Positions 26,319 to 32,286 of a stretch of DNA of 33,052 bases are shown piece after piece; within the stretch, counting starts at the first letter, position 1, and every line of letters starts with the position of its first letter. The stretch is from Nitrospirales bacterium. GTDB taxonomy: Bacteria; Nitrospirota; Nitrospiria; Nitrospirales; UBA8639. A program made the position numbers and the translations under genes. The stretch lies in contig JAJDBR010000207.1 in NCBI GenBank assembly GCA_029261275.1, forward strand, positions 1 through 33,052, given 5' to 3'. Below the pieces are notes generated by a model. The model saw only the letters and a program-made list of their open reading frames with translations, made no database searches and was not told the origin of the DNA.

Positions 26319-27560
26319 ATGGCACGTGCCAAGCAATTGACCAGCGAGGAATTGAAGCAACAAGTGCGGGAACGCACTCGTGAAGTGCAAATTCTCCACC
26401 GGATCAGCGAATCGATTAGTAGTACTCTGGAACAGGCCACCGTCTTGAAGCAAATTGTGGAAGTGGTGGTTGAAGTCACAAAAGCGGATGCGTGTTTGTT
26501 GTATCTCATTTCTGAAACCAAAGAAGAGCTCATCTTGCGTGCCTCAAAGAATCCGCATCCCCGACTAATCGGTCGGATTTCCATCGGGTTAGGCGAAGGG
26601 ATCACCGGATGGGTGGCTCGGGAAAAAGTGCCGGTTGTCATTCCACGAAATGCCAGCGATGACGCGCGCTTTAAGTTTTTTCATCGATTGCCGGAAGATC
26701 GCTATCAAGCCTTTCTGTCAGTTCCGATTATCAGTAAAGGCGAAATTATCGGGGTGATCAATGTGCAACATAAGCGATCCAAACGGTATACCGAAGAAGT
26801 GCTGGCATTACTGTTGACCATTGCGAATCAGGTGGGCGGAGCCATTGCTAATGCCCGCTTGTATGATGACATGCGGGAAAAGGCACGTCGTCTGGCCACG
26901 CTTTCTCAAGTCTCAGAAACGGTGGCATCGAATCGCATGATTGAAGATGTCTTGCAATTGATTGTGACGATGACTGCCCAATTGATGAGCTCGAAAATTT
27001 GTTCCATCATGCTGGTCGACCAAGATTCAGGGGAATTACGGATTACGGCGACCCAGAGTTTGAGCGATGCCTATAGACGAAAACCTCCGTTGAAAGTAGG
27101 GCAAAGCATGAGTGGGCGAGCCGTACAGGAACAATGCCCGGTGTATGTGCCAGACGTCACGGCAGAAGGTGGATATTTTTATCGAGATTTGGCAAAACGA
27201 GAAGGGCTACATTCGCTGTTATCCGTTCCCATGTTGATGAAGAATAACGTCATTGGGGTCATCAATGTCTATACCTCCACTCATCACCTATTTTCAGATG
27301 AAGAAACGAAGACTCTGCAAGCGATTGCGAACCAATCAGCTGTGGCGATCGAACATACGCGGCTTATGGAAAAATCTTTTGAAATGCAAGAGGCCCTGGA
27401 AGTCCGCAAGCAGGTTGAGCGAGCCAAAGGATTTCTCATGGTATCAAAAGGACTGTCCGAACCCGAAGCTTTTCGCTTGATGCAACGGCAGAGCATGAAT
27501 TTGCGTAAATCCATGCGTGAAATTGCCGATGCCATCATTCTCGCAGAAGAACTTCAGTAG
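26319..27560 (+). CDS. GAF-GAF-ANTAR sensor protein, putative transcription antiterminator
   Basis: The 413 residues show a short N-terminal coiled coil (about 8-28) and two GAF domains (about 36-180 and 210-345), both ending in the typical LSVPI...GVINV pattern. A C-terminal ANTAR domain lies at about 356-411 with VERAKGFLMVSKGLSEPEAF and MREIADAIILAEEL. ANTAR domains bind RNA with paired hexaloop hairpins and prevent transcription termination. There is no receiver or kinase domain, so a ligand sensed by the GAF domains is the likely input. The gene starts 1 nt after aroB. A matching RNA target lies just downstream, before nadE. The ligand is unknown. Confidence 0.93.
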   Translation: MARAKQLTSEELKQQVRERTREVQILHRISESISSTLEQATVLKQIVEVVVEVTKADACLLYLISETKEELILRASKNPHPRLIGRISIGLGEGITGWVAREKVPVVIPRNASDDARFKFFHRLPEDRYQAFLSVPIISKGEIIGVINVQHKRSKRYTEEVLALLLTIANQVGGAIANARLYDDMREKARRLATLSQVSETVASNRMIEDVLQLIVTMTAQLMSSKICSIMLVDQDSGELRITATQSLSDAYRRKPPLKVGQSMSGRAVQEQCPVYVPDVTAEGGYFYRDLAKREGLHSLLSVPMLMKNNVIGVINVYTSTHHLFSDEETKTLQAIANQSAVAIEHTRLMEKSFEMQEALEVRKQVERAKGFLMVSKGLSEPEAFRLMQRQSMNLRKSMREIADAIILAEELQ

Positions 27561-27616: not shown

Positions 27617-27645
27617 TTGAAGAGAGGTTCTGGCACTTGTATAAT
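27617..27645 (+). promoter_or_regulatory. Candidate sigma-70 promoter for nadE-glnD
   Basis: TTGAAG at 27617-27622 and a perfect TATAAT at 27640-27645 are spaced by 17 nt. Transcription would begin near 27651-27653, only a few bases before the first hexaloop hairpin. This gives a leader of about 90 nt that contains just the two hairpins, the terminator and the nadE start. It lies in the gap after the ANTAR gene. Confidence 0.65.
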
Positions 27646-27655
27646 GACTGAAAGG

Positions 27656-27673
27656 GGCGACAACGACGTTGCC
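27656..27673 (+). promoter_or_regulatory. ANTAR-type RNA hexaloop hairpin P1
   Basis: GGCGAC at 27656-27661 pairs with GTTGCC at 27668-27673 (one G-T wobble), enclosing the six-base loop AACGAC. The loop has A at position 1 and G at position 4, the two bases known to be required by ANTAR proteins. It sits at the very 5' end of the predicted transcript. Confidence 0.75.
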
Positions 27674-27695
27674 TGGTCAAATCAAATGGATGAAT

Positions 27696-27711
27696 AGGAC
27701 AATGTCGTCCT
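27696..27711 (+). promoter_or_regulatory. ANTAR-type RNA hexaloop hairpin P2, overlapping the terminator
   Basis: AGGAC at 27696-27700 pairs perfectly with GTCCT at 27707-27711, enclosing the six-base loop AATGTC. Again the loop has A at position 1 and G at position 4. Its 3' arm uses bases 27707-27711, which also form most of the 5' arm of the terminator at 27706-27735. The two structures are therefore mutually exclusive. A linker of 22 nt separates it from P1. Confidence 0.75.
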
Positions 27712-27742
27712 CGGTTCCTTTCGGGACAGAGGACGTTTTTTT
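27706..27742 (+). terminator. Intrinsic terminator (attenuator) directly before nadE
   Basis: CGTCCTC at 27706-27712 pairs with GAGGACG at 27729-27735. After one G/A mismatch, GTTCC at 27714-27718 pairs with GGGAC at 27723-27727 around a TTTC loop. Seven T follow at 27736-27742 and abut the nadE ATG at 27743. The likely Shine-Dalgarno GAGG (27729-27732) is inside the 3' arm. A terminator in this place must be bypassed for nadE to be expressed, so it reads as a regulated attenuator. Confidence 0.85.
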
Positions 27743-29545
27743 ATGATGAACGTACGATTGGCCATGGTGCAGATGAATGCGGTCGTCGGCGATCTTGGGG
27801 CAAACACTCGCGCGATTTGTCGATGGATTCGTGAAGCCAAGAAGGTCAAAGCTGATGTCGTCGTGTTTCCTGAATTAGCGGTATCGGGATACCCTCCAGA
27901 AGATCTGCTTCTCATGCCGCAGTTTCTTCGCGATGTGCATCGCATGCAGGCTCGGATAGCTAACGCCTCAAACGGTCTTTTGGCTGTGGTGGGTAGCGTG
28001 GCCAATCCACGGGATGAACAGTTGAAGCCCTTTTTAAAATCTGATGACCAGGATCCTTCCGATAGACAGAAGCCCTTGAATGTTGCATGGGTCTTTGGCA
28101 AGGGGCAATTAGTCGTGAGCTATGCGAAGCACCAGCTCCCCAATTATGGGGTATTTGATGAACAGCGGTATTTTCAAGAAGGAAGAGCCAATCCGATTGT
28201 TTGCCTTGGATCGGTCAGGATCGGCATCACTATTTGTGAAGATATCTGGTTTGCCGATGGGCCCGTCCGTACCCAAGTGAACGACGGGGGAGCTCAGATG
28301 ATTGTCAATATTAATGCCTCACCCTATCACGTCGGAAAAACACGCACTCGACGACGAATGTTGGCCAATCGTGCGAAAGAGCATGGTGTGTTTGTGAGCT
28401 ATACGAATATGGTTGGGGGGCAGGATGAATTAGTCTTTGACGGGAATAGCCTTGTGATGGATCCTCGTGGGAATCTCGTGGCGCAAGCCAAGGGGTTTGA
28501 AGAAGATCTCCTGCTCACTGATCTTTCTATTCCTAGCGCAATTGATCCACAACCAAAAAGTTTGCCAACGATATCGCCATCCCAAAAACGAGTCGGAATT
28601 ACTTTCCTTCGGATTCCGTGGAAACGTTCGCCCTCACAACCCCTATCCCAATCTGTGCAAAAAAAATCATCATCCATGACGGAATCGGAGGAAATCTATC
28701 GTGCGTTGGTGTTAGGTGTCAGGGATTATGTTCGAAAAAATGGATTTTCCAAAGTTGTGGTGGGGGTCAGCGGAGGGATTGATTCTGCTCTGACGGCACT
28801 GATCGCCCGAGATGCGCTGGGTCCCTCTCAAGTTGTGGGTGTCATGATGCCTTCTCCTTATACATCTTCCGCAAGTAAGCAAGATTCAAGGGCATTGGCG
28901 AAGAATTTTGGAATGGATTTGCTGAATCTTCCCATCACCCCCCTTTTTAAAACATTCCTCCGAGAATTGCGCCCATTTTTTAAAGGGTATTCTGAGGATG
29001 CAACGGAAGAAAATTTACAGGCCAGAATTCGTGGTACGCTCTTAATGGCCCTTTCCAATAAATTTGGGTATCTGGTGTTAACCACGGGGAATAAAAGCGA
29101 AATGAGTGTGGGCTATGCAACCCTATATGGAGACATGGCAGGTGGGTTTGCCGTCATCAAAGATATCACGAAGATGCGGGTGTATCAGTTGGCGAGATGG
29201 CGGAGCGACTACCAAGGTCGAGATTTTGAATCCGTTAGTATTCCCGAGAGAATTCAGTCTCGGCCTCCCTCGGCGGAACTCAAAGCGAATCAAACGGATC
29301 AAGATTCCTTGCCCGCCTACCCTCAGTTAGATGCAATTTTACAGGCCTATATTGAACAAAATCAGTCAAGAAAATCCATTGCGAAGTCAGGCTATCCGGT
29401 AGGTGTCGTGAAAAAGGTGTTGCGCCTAGTTGATCAGAGTGAATACAAGCGCCGCCAATCTCCTATCGGAATAAAAATTACTGCACGCGCATTAGGAAAA
29501 GACCGACGCATGCCGATTACGAATCGATATATTCCAAAGGGATAA
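27743..29545 (+). CDS. nadE: Glutamine-dependent NAD+ synthetase
   Basis: The enzyme amidates nicotinic acid adenine dinucleotide to NAD+, using ammonia released from glutamine. The N-terminal nitrilase-type amidase has the triad E44 (FPELAVSGYPPEDLL), K129 and C165 (GITICEDIWF). The C-terminal synthetase has the P-loop SGGIDSA from residue 343 and TTGNKSEMSVGYATLYGDMAG. At 600 residues the two-domain form is complete. ATG 27743 or 27746 fits the family start. The start codon directly follows the T-run of an attenuator, so expression probably depends on antitermination. Confidence 0.98.
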   Translation: MMNVRLAMVQMNAVVGDLGANTRAICRWIREAKKVKADVVVFPELAVSGYPPEDLLLMPQFLRDVHRMQARIANASNGLLAVVGSVANPRDEQLKPFLKSDDQDPSDRQKPLNVAWVFGKGQLVVSYAKHQLPNYGVFDEQRYFQEGRANPIVCLGSVRIGITICEDIWFADGPVRTQVNDGGAQMIVNINASPYHVGKTRTRRRMLANRAKEHGVFVSYTNMVGGQDELVFDGNSLVMDPRGNLVAQAKGFEEDLLLTDLSIPSAIDPQPKSLPTISPSQKRVGITFLRIPWKRSPSQPLSQSVQKKSSSMTESEEIYRALVLGVRDYVRKNGFSKVVVGVSGGIDSALTALIARDALGPSQVVGVMMPSPYTSSASKQDSRALAKNFGMDLLNLPITPLFKTFLRELRPFFKGYSEDATEENLQARIRGTLLMALSNKFGYLVLTTGNKSEMSVGYATLYGDMAGGFAVIKDITKMRVYQLARWRSDYQGRDFESVSIPERIQSRPPSAELKANQTDQDSLPAYPQLDAILQAYIEQNQSRKSIAKSGYPVGVVKKVLRLVDQSEYKRRQSPIGIKITARALGKDRRMPITNRYIPKG

Positions 29546-29586: not shown

Positions 29587-32286
29587 ATGACAATAGGTAA
29601 TCCCATCTCCTTTCCGAATTCTTCCACCATTGGTTCCCAAGGGCTGAAGGAACAACGAGAGGCGATGCATCAACGATTGATGGAAGGGGCCACCGGAGCA
29701 GAAGTCGTCCAGGTATTTTCTGATTTTATGGATGGGCTCTTAATGGCGAGATTCCGTGAAGTCATCCAACAAGGCAATGCTGAAATTCGAGCAGGCTGGC
29801 AAGAATGTTCTTTAGTAGCCATGGGTGGATACGGTCGCCGAGAATTGGCACCTTATTCTGATATTGACGTGATGATCTTGACCCAAGGGAATCAAGCCGA
29901 ACTGGCTCAGGCCATTTCCATAGGCGTCTTTCATCATTTGTGGGATTTAGGTTTTCAAGTCGGACATAGCGTTCGATCCATTGCGGAGTGTCTTGAGATT
30001 GGGGAGGCCGACATCCCTGCTTGCACCTCTCTCATGGAGTCCAGGTTTTTGGGAGGCAATGCGGCGGTATTTCAGGAATTTCAGAGGAAATTTGATCGAC
30101 GAATTATCAAACGACAGAATAAACGATTTGTTCTAGATAAAATCGAAGAGCGGCAGCGGGAATATGCAAAATTTGGAGGGACGGTCTTTTTACTTGAACC
30201 GAATGTTAAAAAAAGTAAGGGTGGATTGCGAGATGTTCACGTGGTGCAGTGGGTAGGGCAAGCTCGATATGGAGCCGGAACTATTCAAGAACTATCTAAT
30301 CGAGGGATATTGGCACTTCAAGATTATCAGGTGCTGCAAGAGGCGCAAGAATTTCTGTGGCGTCTGAGAGCGTTTCTTCACTTAGAGGCAGACCGGGCAC
30401 AGGATATTCTGACCTTTGATGATCAGGTCAAGATCGCGGAAATTTATGGCTTATCCGATCTTCCCAATCTGTTGGCTGTTGAACAATTCATGCAACAATA
30501 TTTCCGGCACACTACGGGATTGCATGATCGGTGTTTGCGATTTCTTGAACAGACTCATGAGGAATCTTGGGTTGACCGAATTCGGCGACGATTGAAGCGC
30601 TATTCATTGATTGAGGGACATTTTCGAAGAGAAGATAATCGCCTCACCATTCCCACAGAAAAAATACTGGGGGTCTTGGAAAGTCCCATCCTACTTTTGA
30701 GGTTCTTTGAATTGTCTCATGAGCAAGCGGTGGCCATTGATTCACAGGTATTAAATGAATTGTCGCAACATTTAGCGACTGTGCCAAACGAACGGTTTCA
30801 AACAGACGAAGTCAGCTCCCTTTTCCGGGGAATATTACGTCGACCCGGTCGGATCGGGAAGACGCTAGAGGCGATGCATCAAGCTGGGCTCTTGGAAAAG
30901 CTTGTTCCAGCCTTTGCCAGAGTTCGAGGTCTCATGCAATTTAACCAGTACCATAAGTATACGGTGGATGAGCATAGTTTATTAGCCGTCAAAGAGGCCG
31001 AGCGATTACTTGACGCTCAAGGGATCATGGGTGAGGTGTATGGGACGATTGAGGACAAGGATATTCTGCACTTGGCTTTGCTGCTGCACGATTTAGGTAA
31101 GGGCAGACCTGGTGATCATTGTAAGGTCGGACAAGAGTTGGCCCATAAAACAGCTGATCGGTTGGGGCTGTCACAAGATGAAAGAGAGGTCCTGGCCTTT
31201 CTTGTGTTTCATCACTTAGTCATGTCCCATACGGCCTTTCGCCGAGATCTGAATGATCCGAAGATCATCCAGGCGTTTGCAAAAAAAATGGTAACCGTAC
31301 CGGTCCTTCAAAAAATGTTCATTCTGACTGTCGCAGATATTTCCGCTGTAGGACCTGAAGTCATGACCAAATGGAAGGAATCCCTGCTGGGTGAACTTTA
31401 TTCCAACACATACGAAGTGATGGTAGAAGGGCAGCTATCTTCTGCAACAACCAGCGGGCAAAGCGCCCTTTCACCCGCCGCTCGAAAATCTCTCCTGAAT
31501 GCGATGGCCATTCAATTAGGGGAATCCTCGAGGCATCAATCTGATTGGTCGTCATGGGTAGATAAACCACTCTCACAACTTCCTGATTGGTATGTGACCT
31601 CCACGCCGCCTGAACAAATGGCCGCACATCTTCTCGCCATGAGGAATTTGTCCTCAACGCCGACACATGTTGAAGGGCGATTCAACGGAGAATTGGGTGT
31701 GTCGGAATATGCCCTGATTACGCGAGCACAAGCGAAGCCAGGTCTCTTTATGCAAGTTACCGGCGTTCTGGCTGCCTTGGGTTTAGGCGTCCTGAATGCC
31801 CAGATTATGACTCTAGATGATGGGACGGCGCTAGATATATTTTCGGTTAATGACCCTGATGGGGAAATGCCGCCTTCGGATTTAAAATTAGAGGAAGTCT
31901 CCCTGGAAATTCAGGCAGTTGTTCAAGAAGAATCTTCGGTTGAACAAGTCTTTGAACGCCACCGCCGCCTGACGTTTGGTCCTCAGTTCCCTACTGGACG
32001 TCGTCCAACCGAAGTCCTCATTGATAATGAAGCGTCGGATTCCTACACGGTGATTGATGTCTTTGCGGATGACAAAGCAGGCCTTTTATTCGTGTTAGGC
32101 AAAACATTAGTACAGTTAGACCTGTCTATCCATATGGCCAGAATCGGGACACGATTAGATCAGGTGGTTGATGTCTTTTATGTGACCATTGCCTCAGGTG
32201 AAAAGATCCGTGATGCGACGCATTGCGAACAGATTCAAGAAACGATTCAGAAAGCCGTCGATGCGTTTCTGGATGGAGGGCAGTAG
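29587..32286 (+). CDS. glnD: Bifunctional PII uridylyltransferase / uridylyl-removing enzyme
   Basis: GlnD senses glutamine and adds or removes UMP on PII proteins, setting nitrogen status. The 899 residues show the nucleotidyltransferase site GGYGRRELAPYSDIDVMIL at 80-98 (D92 and D94 as metal ligands). An HD domain around LLLHDLGKGRPGDH has H501 and D502, and two C-terminal ACT domains start near 709 and 821. All four domains are intact. It lies 41 nt after nadE with no convincing promoter or terminator between, so it is probably in the same transcript. The ribosome binding site is weak. Confidence 0.97.
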   Translation: MTIGNPISFPNSSTIGSQGLKEQREAMHQRLMEGATGAEVVQVFSDFMDGLLMARFREVIQQGNAEIRAGWQECSLVAMGGYGRRELAPYSDIDVMILTQGNQAELAQAISIGVFHHLWDLGFQVGHSVRSIAECLEIGEADIPACTSLMESRFLGGNAAVFQEFQRKFDRRIIKRQNKRFVLDKIEERQREYAKFGGTVFLLEPNVKKSKGGLRDVHVVQWVGQARYGAGTIQELSNRGILALQDYQVLQEAQEFLWRLRAFLHLEADRAQDILTFDDQVKIAEIYGLSDLPNLLAVEQFMQQYFRHTTGLHDRCLRFLEQTHEESWVDRIRRRLKRYSLIEGHFRREDNRLTIPTEKILGVLESPILLLRFFELSHEQAVAIDSQVLNELSQHLATVPNERFQTDEVSSLFRGILRRPGRIGKTLEAMHQAGLLEKLVPAFARVRGLMQFNQYHKYTVDEHSLLAVKEAERLLDAQGIMGEVYGTIEDKDILHLALLLHDLGKGRPGDHCKVGQELAHKTADRLGLSQDEREVLAFLVFHHLVMSHTAFRRDLNDPKIIQAFAKKMVTVPVLQKMFILTVADISAVGPEVMTKWKESLLGELYSNTYEVMVEGQLSSATTSGQSALSPAARKSLLNAMAIQLGESSRHQSDWSSWVDKPLSQLPDWYVTSTPPEQMAAHLLAMRNLSSTPTHVEGRFNGELGVSEYALITRAQAKPGLFMQVTGVLAALGLGVLNAQIMTLDDGTALDIFSVNDPDGEMPPSDLKLEEVSLEIQAVVQEESSVEQVFERHRRLTFGPQFPTGRRPTEVLIDNEASDSYTVIDVFADDKAGLLFVLGKTLVQLDLSIHMARIGTRLDQVVDVFYVTIASGEKIRDATHCEQIQETIQKAVDAFLDGGQ

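Follow-up and report, generated by a model that had tools for sequence, protein, structure and literature searches.

A putative ANTAR-responsive attenuator of nadE and similar leaders before nitrogen genes in Nitrospiria

The main text of Ramesh 2012 (PMC3369931) describes a two-hairpin leader motif, the rule that its hexaloops carry A at position 1 and G at position 4 (A1/G4), the overlap with a terminator, and nitrogen regulons in diverse bacteria, with hits before genes for P-II, ammonium, urea and nitrate/nitrite transporters, nitrite reductase and glutamine synthetase. It covers 1902 genomes, perhaps including Ca. N. defluvii; "Nitrospira" and words starting with "NAD" are absent from this main text, and the supplementary tables may list Nitrospira. 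According to the same text, no PAS- or GAF-linked ANTAR protein had been characterised by 2012. The leaders of the eut genes of Enterococcus faecalis, the EutV/EutW system, display two A1/G4 hexaloop hairpins (P1 and P2), AC..GU closing pairs and an overlap of P2 with the terminator, as does the leader described here; in the main text of PMC3369931 these closing pairs are needed at P1 of eutP. NasR of Klebsiella oxytoca, which acts on the nasF leader, resembles our case in combining sensor and ANTAR in one protein and in its nitrogen theme (PMC7496416, available part).

The first-pass annotation of the present locus knew of no described ANTAR control of nadE, and none was found in the literature searched, the 2012 paper being covered by its main text; in the available part of PMC7602753, nadE is targeted by the small RNA CyaR rather than by ANTAR. 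Judging from titles and abstract openings, we found no paper on ANTAR regulation in Nitrospira, and none on nitrogen-assimilation control in Nitrospira and its kin was among the matches listed for open-access papers.

The nadE leader and its folds

The window, i.e., the whole stretch of 33,052 nt analysed here, is contig C121 of a 3.8-Mb Nitrospirales genome (90% complete). In a collection of named genomes, Nitrospirales MAGs, among them NPIRA03, OFTM334 and SZUA-215, are close kin, with 88-93% identity in the ANTAR protein. Its genes follow the order aroC (as we take the gene before aroB to be), aroB, GAF-GAF-ANTAR, leader, nadE and glnD. The features are as follows:

26319..27560, + strand: GAF-GAF-ANTAR protein, 413 aa, proposed antiterminator (Pfam)
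27617..27645, + strand: sigma-70-type promoter TTGAAG-17-TATAAT, 10/12 consensus matches
27655..27674, + strand: P1 hairpin, hexaloop AACGAC at 27662-27667 (direct reading, fold)
27675..27695, + strand: linker between P1 and P2, 21 nt (direct reading, scanner)
27696..27711, + strand: P2 hairpin, hexaloop AATGTC at 27701-27706 (direct reading, fold)
27706..27742, + strand: intrinsic terminator with 7-bp lower stem, inner stem and T7 (fold -19.0 kcal/mol, z -5.1)
27730..27733, + strand: AGGA, possible Shine-Dalgarno (direct reading; function inferred)
27743..29545, + strand: nadE, NAD synthetase, 600 aa (Pfam NAD_synthase 249 bits, CN_hydrolase 102 bits)
29587..32286, + strand: glnD, PII uridylyltransferase (Pfam GlnD_UR_UTase, HD, ACT), 41 nt 3' of nadE

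The NAD synthetase is labelled glutamine-dependent because both of its domains are present. Direct reading confirmed, base for base, the promoter, the two loops, the terminator and the T7 run that the first-pass annotation had placed here. The promoter is composed of a -35-like TTGAAG (27617-27622), a 17-nt spacer and the -10 element TATAAT (27640-27645); it is the best of seven promoter-like sites in the 7 kb scanned, where such sites as a class are not commoner than in shuffles. P1 has a stem of 7 bp (27655-27661 with 27668-27674, the outermost pair being G-U), P2 a stem of 5 bp (27696-27700 with 27707-27711), and both hexaloops carry A1, G4 and AC..GU closing pairs. The lower stem of the terminator pairs 27706-27712 with 27729-27735 and leads to T7 at 27736-27742, 0 nt past which nadE begins with its ATG at 27743. 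Bases 27706-27711 belong both to P2 and to the 5' arm of the terminator, as had been claimed from the first reading of the two arms, so that P2 and the terminator are mutually exclusive.

Folded in isolation, P1 reaches -7.7 (27656-27673) and P2 -5.6 kcal/mol, with the terminator at the value listed above. A scanner for an A..G.. hexaloop hairpin whose 3' arm doubles as the 5' arm of a T-run terminator revealed a single match on both strands of the window, namely the nadE leader. Two hundred dinucleotide-shuffled windows gave 0.125 matches per window, none with P1 upstream, and 5000 shuffles of the leader alone gave one P2 with terminator and no complete pattern. Chance does not account for the pattern before nadE.

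Left unconstrained, 27647-27745 reaches its MFE in a third fold, where P1 pairs with P2 over a long range (-36.0, versus -32.0 with P1 and the terminator enforced on the same stretch); the cores of the two are complementary because both are GAC..GTC hairpins. Such a fold is what a protein-free metabolite riboswitch or thermodynamic attenuator might use. When folded only to the end of P2, the window leader forms neither hairpin, and P2 forms in 14 of 24 leader cores, the window's not among them. Against a protein-free device, however, all 24 leader cores without the 5' extension show the terminator in their full-length MFE (P1 in 16), no Rfam family reached its gathering score in the window, the 24-leader alignment displays two small, alike loops and no larger conserved core, and all but one of the genomes without the ANTAR gene lack leaders. 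We regard this explanation as very improbable.

Conservation of the leader and its ANTAR protein

We aligned 24 related leaders and built the covariance model R1 on them. The rows had been picked by a scanner demanding A..G loops and, at P2,.GACAA.G..GTC, and the loop invariance of this alignment is therefore partly built in; the stems were not selected for variation. Four of the six P1 pairs showed changes on both sides, and P1 and P2 together displayed 92.8% of cells paired and 16 double-change cells versus 5.0 in shuffles (0/500 as high), while a stricter count, that of pairs with double changes, gave 4 versus 2.5 (37/500 as high). Sliding the alignment by +1 gave 5 double-change pairs and 8 cells. 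P2 says little on covariation since it is nearly invariant. The loop-closing pairs of P1 are A-U in 23 leaders and G-U in one, followed by C-G in all 24. The terminator lies above shuffles for cells paired, double-change cells and covariation score, but not for the other measures, and its innermost lower-stem pair changes from C-G to U-A in 8/24 leaders.

These leaders also bear on the possibility that control is mainly translational, with the protein binding P2 and thereby exposing the Shine-Dalgarno in the terminator arm, and with termination secondary. The AGGA within the 3' arm of the terminator sits 9 nt 5' of the nadE ATG, and the main text of PMC3369931 noted hits near or over ribosome-binding sites. 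Yet a T run of 6 to 10 is kept in 24/24 aligned leaders, and in some genomes of family f2 the leader ends up to 162 nt 5' of nadE, too far for its Shine-Dalgarno. We thus consider mainly translational control unlikely; translation may be coupled to attenuation because the terminator 3' arm carries this likely Shine-Dalgarno.

Among 89 distinct model matches, whose loop rows were fitted to R1, 6-nt loops occur in 76 and 78 rows at the two hairpins, with G4 in 76/76 and 78/78 and with A or G at position 1; the P1-P2 linker measures 17-38 nt in 79 of the 89. The A1/G4 rule of the first-pass annotation thus held for G4, found in every 6-nt loop counted, and is looser than claimed for A1 because position 1 is A or G in relatives. 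P2 loops of 7 nt such as AATGAAC occur in six leaders of family f1, which stand before nitrite genes or before the preceding gene for a sigma-54 activator:

L180:1953-2048
L182:1930-2021
L184:9309-9395
L187:9883-9971
L188:1275-1369
L191:7641-7737

Since scans and seeds demanding A..G are biased to the motif, the nadE test was repeated with free loop letters. For 117 distinct nadE upstream regions, collected by protein homology and with near relatives counted apart, 400 nt were scanned for any hairpin with a 6-nt loop overlapping a T-run terminator. Where the ANTAR gene lies in the same locus (n=78), 58 regions revealed such a hairpin (48 A..G, 10 G..G), leaving 20 without it and 30 without the strict A..G motif. 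Nine of ten regions had it, all A..G, where the ANTAR gene lies elsewhere in the genome, and none of the 29 nadE upstream regions of ANTAR-less genomes did. Position 4 is G in 58/58 and 9/9 of the regions with the hairpin, and as all loops are A..G or G..G, G4 is universal and position 1 a purine in these 67. In some of the regions lacking it (L077, L086, L093), nadE lies 34-135 nt 3' of the ANTAR gene and a leader precedes the next, porin-amt operon. The nadE leaders of genus g2 (L010, L012, L014, L015, L018, L019) keep P2 and the terminator, and the scanner saw no P1 in them.

The GAF-GAF-ANTAR protein is the sole ANTAR match in the window genome, at 90% completeness. Pfam assigns two stretches to GAF_2 and residues 356-407 to ANTAR (PF03861; 71.1 bits versus a cut-off of 27.3), and no receiver or NIT domain was found by Pfam, which makes it probably a one-component sensor. 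The AlphaFold model (pLDDT 83.7, pTM 0.56) has C-terminal helices at 327-377, 381-395 and 399-412. A comparison with the 11 RNA-contact residues of EutV (6wsh), read off the alignment by hand, showed seven identical (R363, K364, K370, E381, M393, N394, R396), two conservative (R368, K147R; F385, Y164F) and two different ones (Q389, R168Q; S398, R177S). Among solved sequences, GAF1 comes closest to 3ci6 (E 8e-24), a GAF domain from a phosphotransferase of PtsP type (enzyme I-Ntr), with a target-normalised TM of 0.84-0.87 to the PtsP-type GAF, and in the available part of PMC4848567 glutamine acts through the GAF domain of enzyme I-Ntr. In Foldseek, tandem-GAF phosphodiesterases rank first, above PtsP-type GAF, so that the ligand is only a guess; we discarded the fold search as a ligand indicator, as it holds no information on this point. 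Our guess is that the signal is nitrogen status, perhaps glutamine via a GAF domain.

Of 295 genomes sampled from the phylum, 278 match this protein at E 1e-10, many over the GAF part only. Matches reaching the ANTAR domain come from families f1-f4, f6-f9 and f20 and, weakly, f5; that of f10 (G185) ends at residue 360, before most of the domain. Genomes without a PF03861 match number 34, and 31 of these belong to genus g7. In a covariance search, the check that the first-pass annotation had named, R1 at E 1e-3 found leaders in 70/79 genomes matching the protein versus 1/34 without ANTAR (G167), a difference with a Fisher p of 4e-19 in which kinship is not corrected for. By family these are 19/19 in f1, 46/47 in f2, 0/1 in f3 and 5/12 in the other families of the class, and G185, where most of the ANTAR domain is outside the match, is one of the nine misses. 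A further 33 distant genomes, including 21 of f20, gave none. Whereas both the 79-genome and the ANTAR-less/distant sets were searched with stricter filters, laxer ones at E 0.05 gave matches, many of them weak, in 18/22 selected genomes, including f3, f4 and all five of f6. Relatives, then, mostly keep the leader with the ANTAR gene and are without it otherwise, one exception apart, which supports the reading as an ANTAR-type leader. In a nadE tree of 69 rows, the absence of ANTAR needs at least three changes, most simply losses.

The exceptional G167 leader (L196:8576-8670, - strand) is probably a relict. G167 is sister to the other 24 genomes of a large ANTAR-less clade in the nadE tree, and the reading of its leader as one before ureD was ruled out: the leader sits 3' of that gene, and the 2.6 kb behind it contain no gene on the same strand. 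Two further R1 matches look like chance: one of 24 bits in G183:C1, where an unrelated 460-aa protein follows, and one of 21 bits in G185:C93, behind which no gene was found.

Among named records, 67/80 loci around the ANTAR gene contain a leader at E 0.01, and nadE is the next labelled gene in 41 of these 67, Ca. Nitrospira defluvii (L239) included. The other 13 are without an R1 match in the examined stretch, Nitrospira moscoviensis (L232) among them, where the ANTAR gene is followed by urtA and no leader match occurs within the 15 kb examined.

Genes behind the leaders

The window genome holds two further leaders. One precedes an FNT nitrite-transporter-like gene (NirC model 218 bits, below the 293-bit cut-off) and nirA, whose product scores 553 bits as a ferredoxin-nitrite reductase of NirA type (cut-off 594), and the other a BBP2 porin-amt-glnK-amt-glnA operon. 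In relatives, leaders are also found before urt, nrt-like, cynS and glnA genes, and all targets together comprise nadE, FNT/nirA, amt, glnK, glnA, glnD, urt, an NMT1-type (NrtA-like) ABC transporter, cynS, sigma-54 activators and ExtI-/BBP2-like porins. The count took 95 of 114 matches, of which 94, from 34 genomes, were placed; outside it were 13 matches directly before nadE and six others, in G270 (two), G081, G157, G183 and G254. By best tblastn label, a nitrogen gene is the first labelled one behind 49/94 placed leaders, and first or among the next same-strand genes behind 77/94. Three of the 17 without one by this rule (G143:C5:71409, G115:C4:53297, G292:C35) lead further on to urt, cynS-nirA or amt-glnK.

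In the window, as in many f1 genomes, the leader lies directly 3' of the ANTAR gene, a position in which it could be the ordinary terminator of that gene, with nadE read from elsewhere and the hexaloops incidental. In several f2 genomes, however, the leader stays with nadE though the ANTAR gene lies at a distance of some 2 kb, and elsewhere in the genome like leaders stand before operons of porin-amt, FNT-nirA, urt and nrt-like type. A promoter-like site precedes the window leader, nadE follows its T7 immediately, and G4 of the loops is kept. Leaders unlinked to the ANTAR gene largely refute an ordinary terminator, which we find scarcely credible.

Some leaders stand in tandem, as in G055 (L297; C1:1309520-1309614 and 1309619-1309724). 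Thirteen more pairs occur in G009, G077, G085 (2), G115, G121, G145, G165, G195, G220, G246 (2) and G250, the two leaders of a pair lying 4-39 nt apart before FNT, nrtA-like, cynS or lipoprotein genes. Perhaps they act as two terminators in series and give sharper control. The lipoprotein-like proteins behind leaders, three of which are tandem, have 298-351 aa and are without Pfam match:

L195:6116-7036, - strand: lipoprotein-like gene
L301:7438-8334, - strand: lipoprotein-like gene
L307:7245-8174, - strand: lipoprotein-like gene
L313:2078-3133, - strand: lipoprotein-like gene

For family f20, which belongs to another class of the phylum, regions upstream of glnA were collected by protein homology alone (15 loci from 14/15 genomes). 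An A1/G4 hexaloop, gaagac[AAGGGC]gtcttc or alike, precedes glnA in all 13 loci with complete glnA (L337-L349); the scanner joined it to a terminator in ten, and in the other three a terminator stem can be seen, though with imperfections. Of these 13 loci, L347 alone had a P1 reported by the scanner, one of 4 bp. Single-hexaloop leaders of this kind fit the revised model, set out in the available part of PMC8934654, that takes a single hexaloop as the minimal ANTAR site.

Proposed mechanism and comparison with known systems

We read 27617-27745, with a probability of roughly 0.88, as an attenuator of the nadE-glnD operon that responds to an ANTAR protein, and this protein probably acts on the other nitrogen leaders as well. 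The reading builds on observed features: anatomy, conservation, covariation of P1, loss together with the protein, and the genes behind the leaders. Several results speak against it: the preference of the whole leader for the long-range fold, a linker longer than in EutV, two differing contact residues, the nadE regions and named loci that have the ANTAR gene but show no motif or R1 match, and the leader of ANTAR-less G167. For binding, antitermination, direction of control and signal, we infer the following course. RNA polymerase would start at about 27652. With no active ANTAR protein, the terminator at 27706-27742 would form and transcription would stop just 5' of nadE. The active GAF-GAF-ANTAR protein, encoded directly upstream, would hold the hexaloops of P1 and P2, the 3' arm of P2 would be unavailable for the terminator, and nadE-glnD would be transcribed. 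The same protein probably acts at the leaders of the nitrite-uptake/reduction and the ammonium-uptake/glutamine-synthetase operons. As many relatives carry the leader before genes for nitrogen uptake, RNA-level control of nitrogen use probably lies with one protein. Beyond what the first-pass annotation had proposed, nadE appears to belong to a nitrogen-assimilation regulon and the sensor part to be GAF-GAF.

A wider, rather doubtful possibility is that nitrogen regulation in Nitrospiria rests mainly with one GAF-GAF-ANTAR protein, which would directly sense glutamine or 2-oxoglutarate in an enzyme I-Ntr-like GAF pocket and control by antitermination alone. If so, antitermination would switch glutamine synthetase, GlnD and NAD synthesis along with the use of ammonium, nitrite, nitrate, urea and cyanate, an RNA-level counterpart of the role of NtrC at promoters elsewhere.

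Nitrogen-assimilation control in Nitrospira and its kin seems little known, and one RNA-binding protein with a defined set of leaders makes the question directly testable, the clades without protein and leaders serving as natural controls. Such a set would also give a GAF-type ANTAR protein clear target RNAs and would tie NAD synthesis, a consumer of glutamine, to nitrogen control.

In comparison with known systems, EutV/EutW combines a receiver-ANTAR regulator with a kinase, whereas the protein here is GAF-GAF-ANTAR. The main text of PMC3369931 gives a linker of 5-12 nt as working for EutV and 14 as already failing, and the 21 nt of the window leader lie outside that range. NasR, as described in the available part of PMC7496416, senses nitrate by a NIT domain, in contrast to the two GAF domains and the multi-operon regulon found here. 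The nitrogen regulons predicted for Desulfotomaculum acetoxidans and Pelobacter carbinolicus in the main text of Ramesh 2012 have several leaders per genome, as here, but differ in phylum and sensor. The Nitrospiria leaders differ from the kind described there in their GAF sensor, longer linkers, some 7-nt P2 loops, A or G at position 1, and tandems. Thus, ANTAR leaders before nitrogen genes are known already from that main text, and what is new, as far as searched, is nadE as an ANTAR-leader target together with the Nitrospiria regulon.
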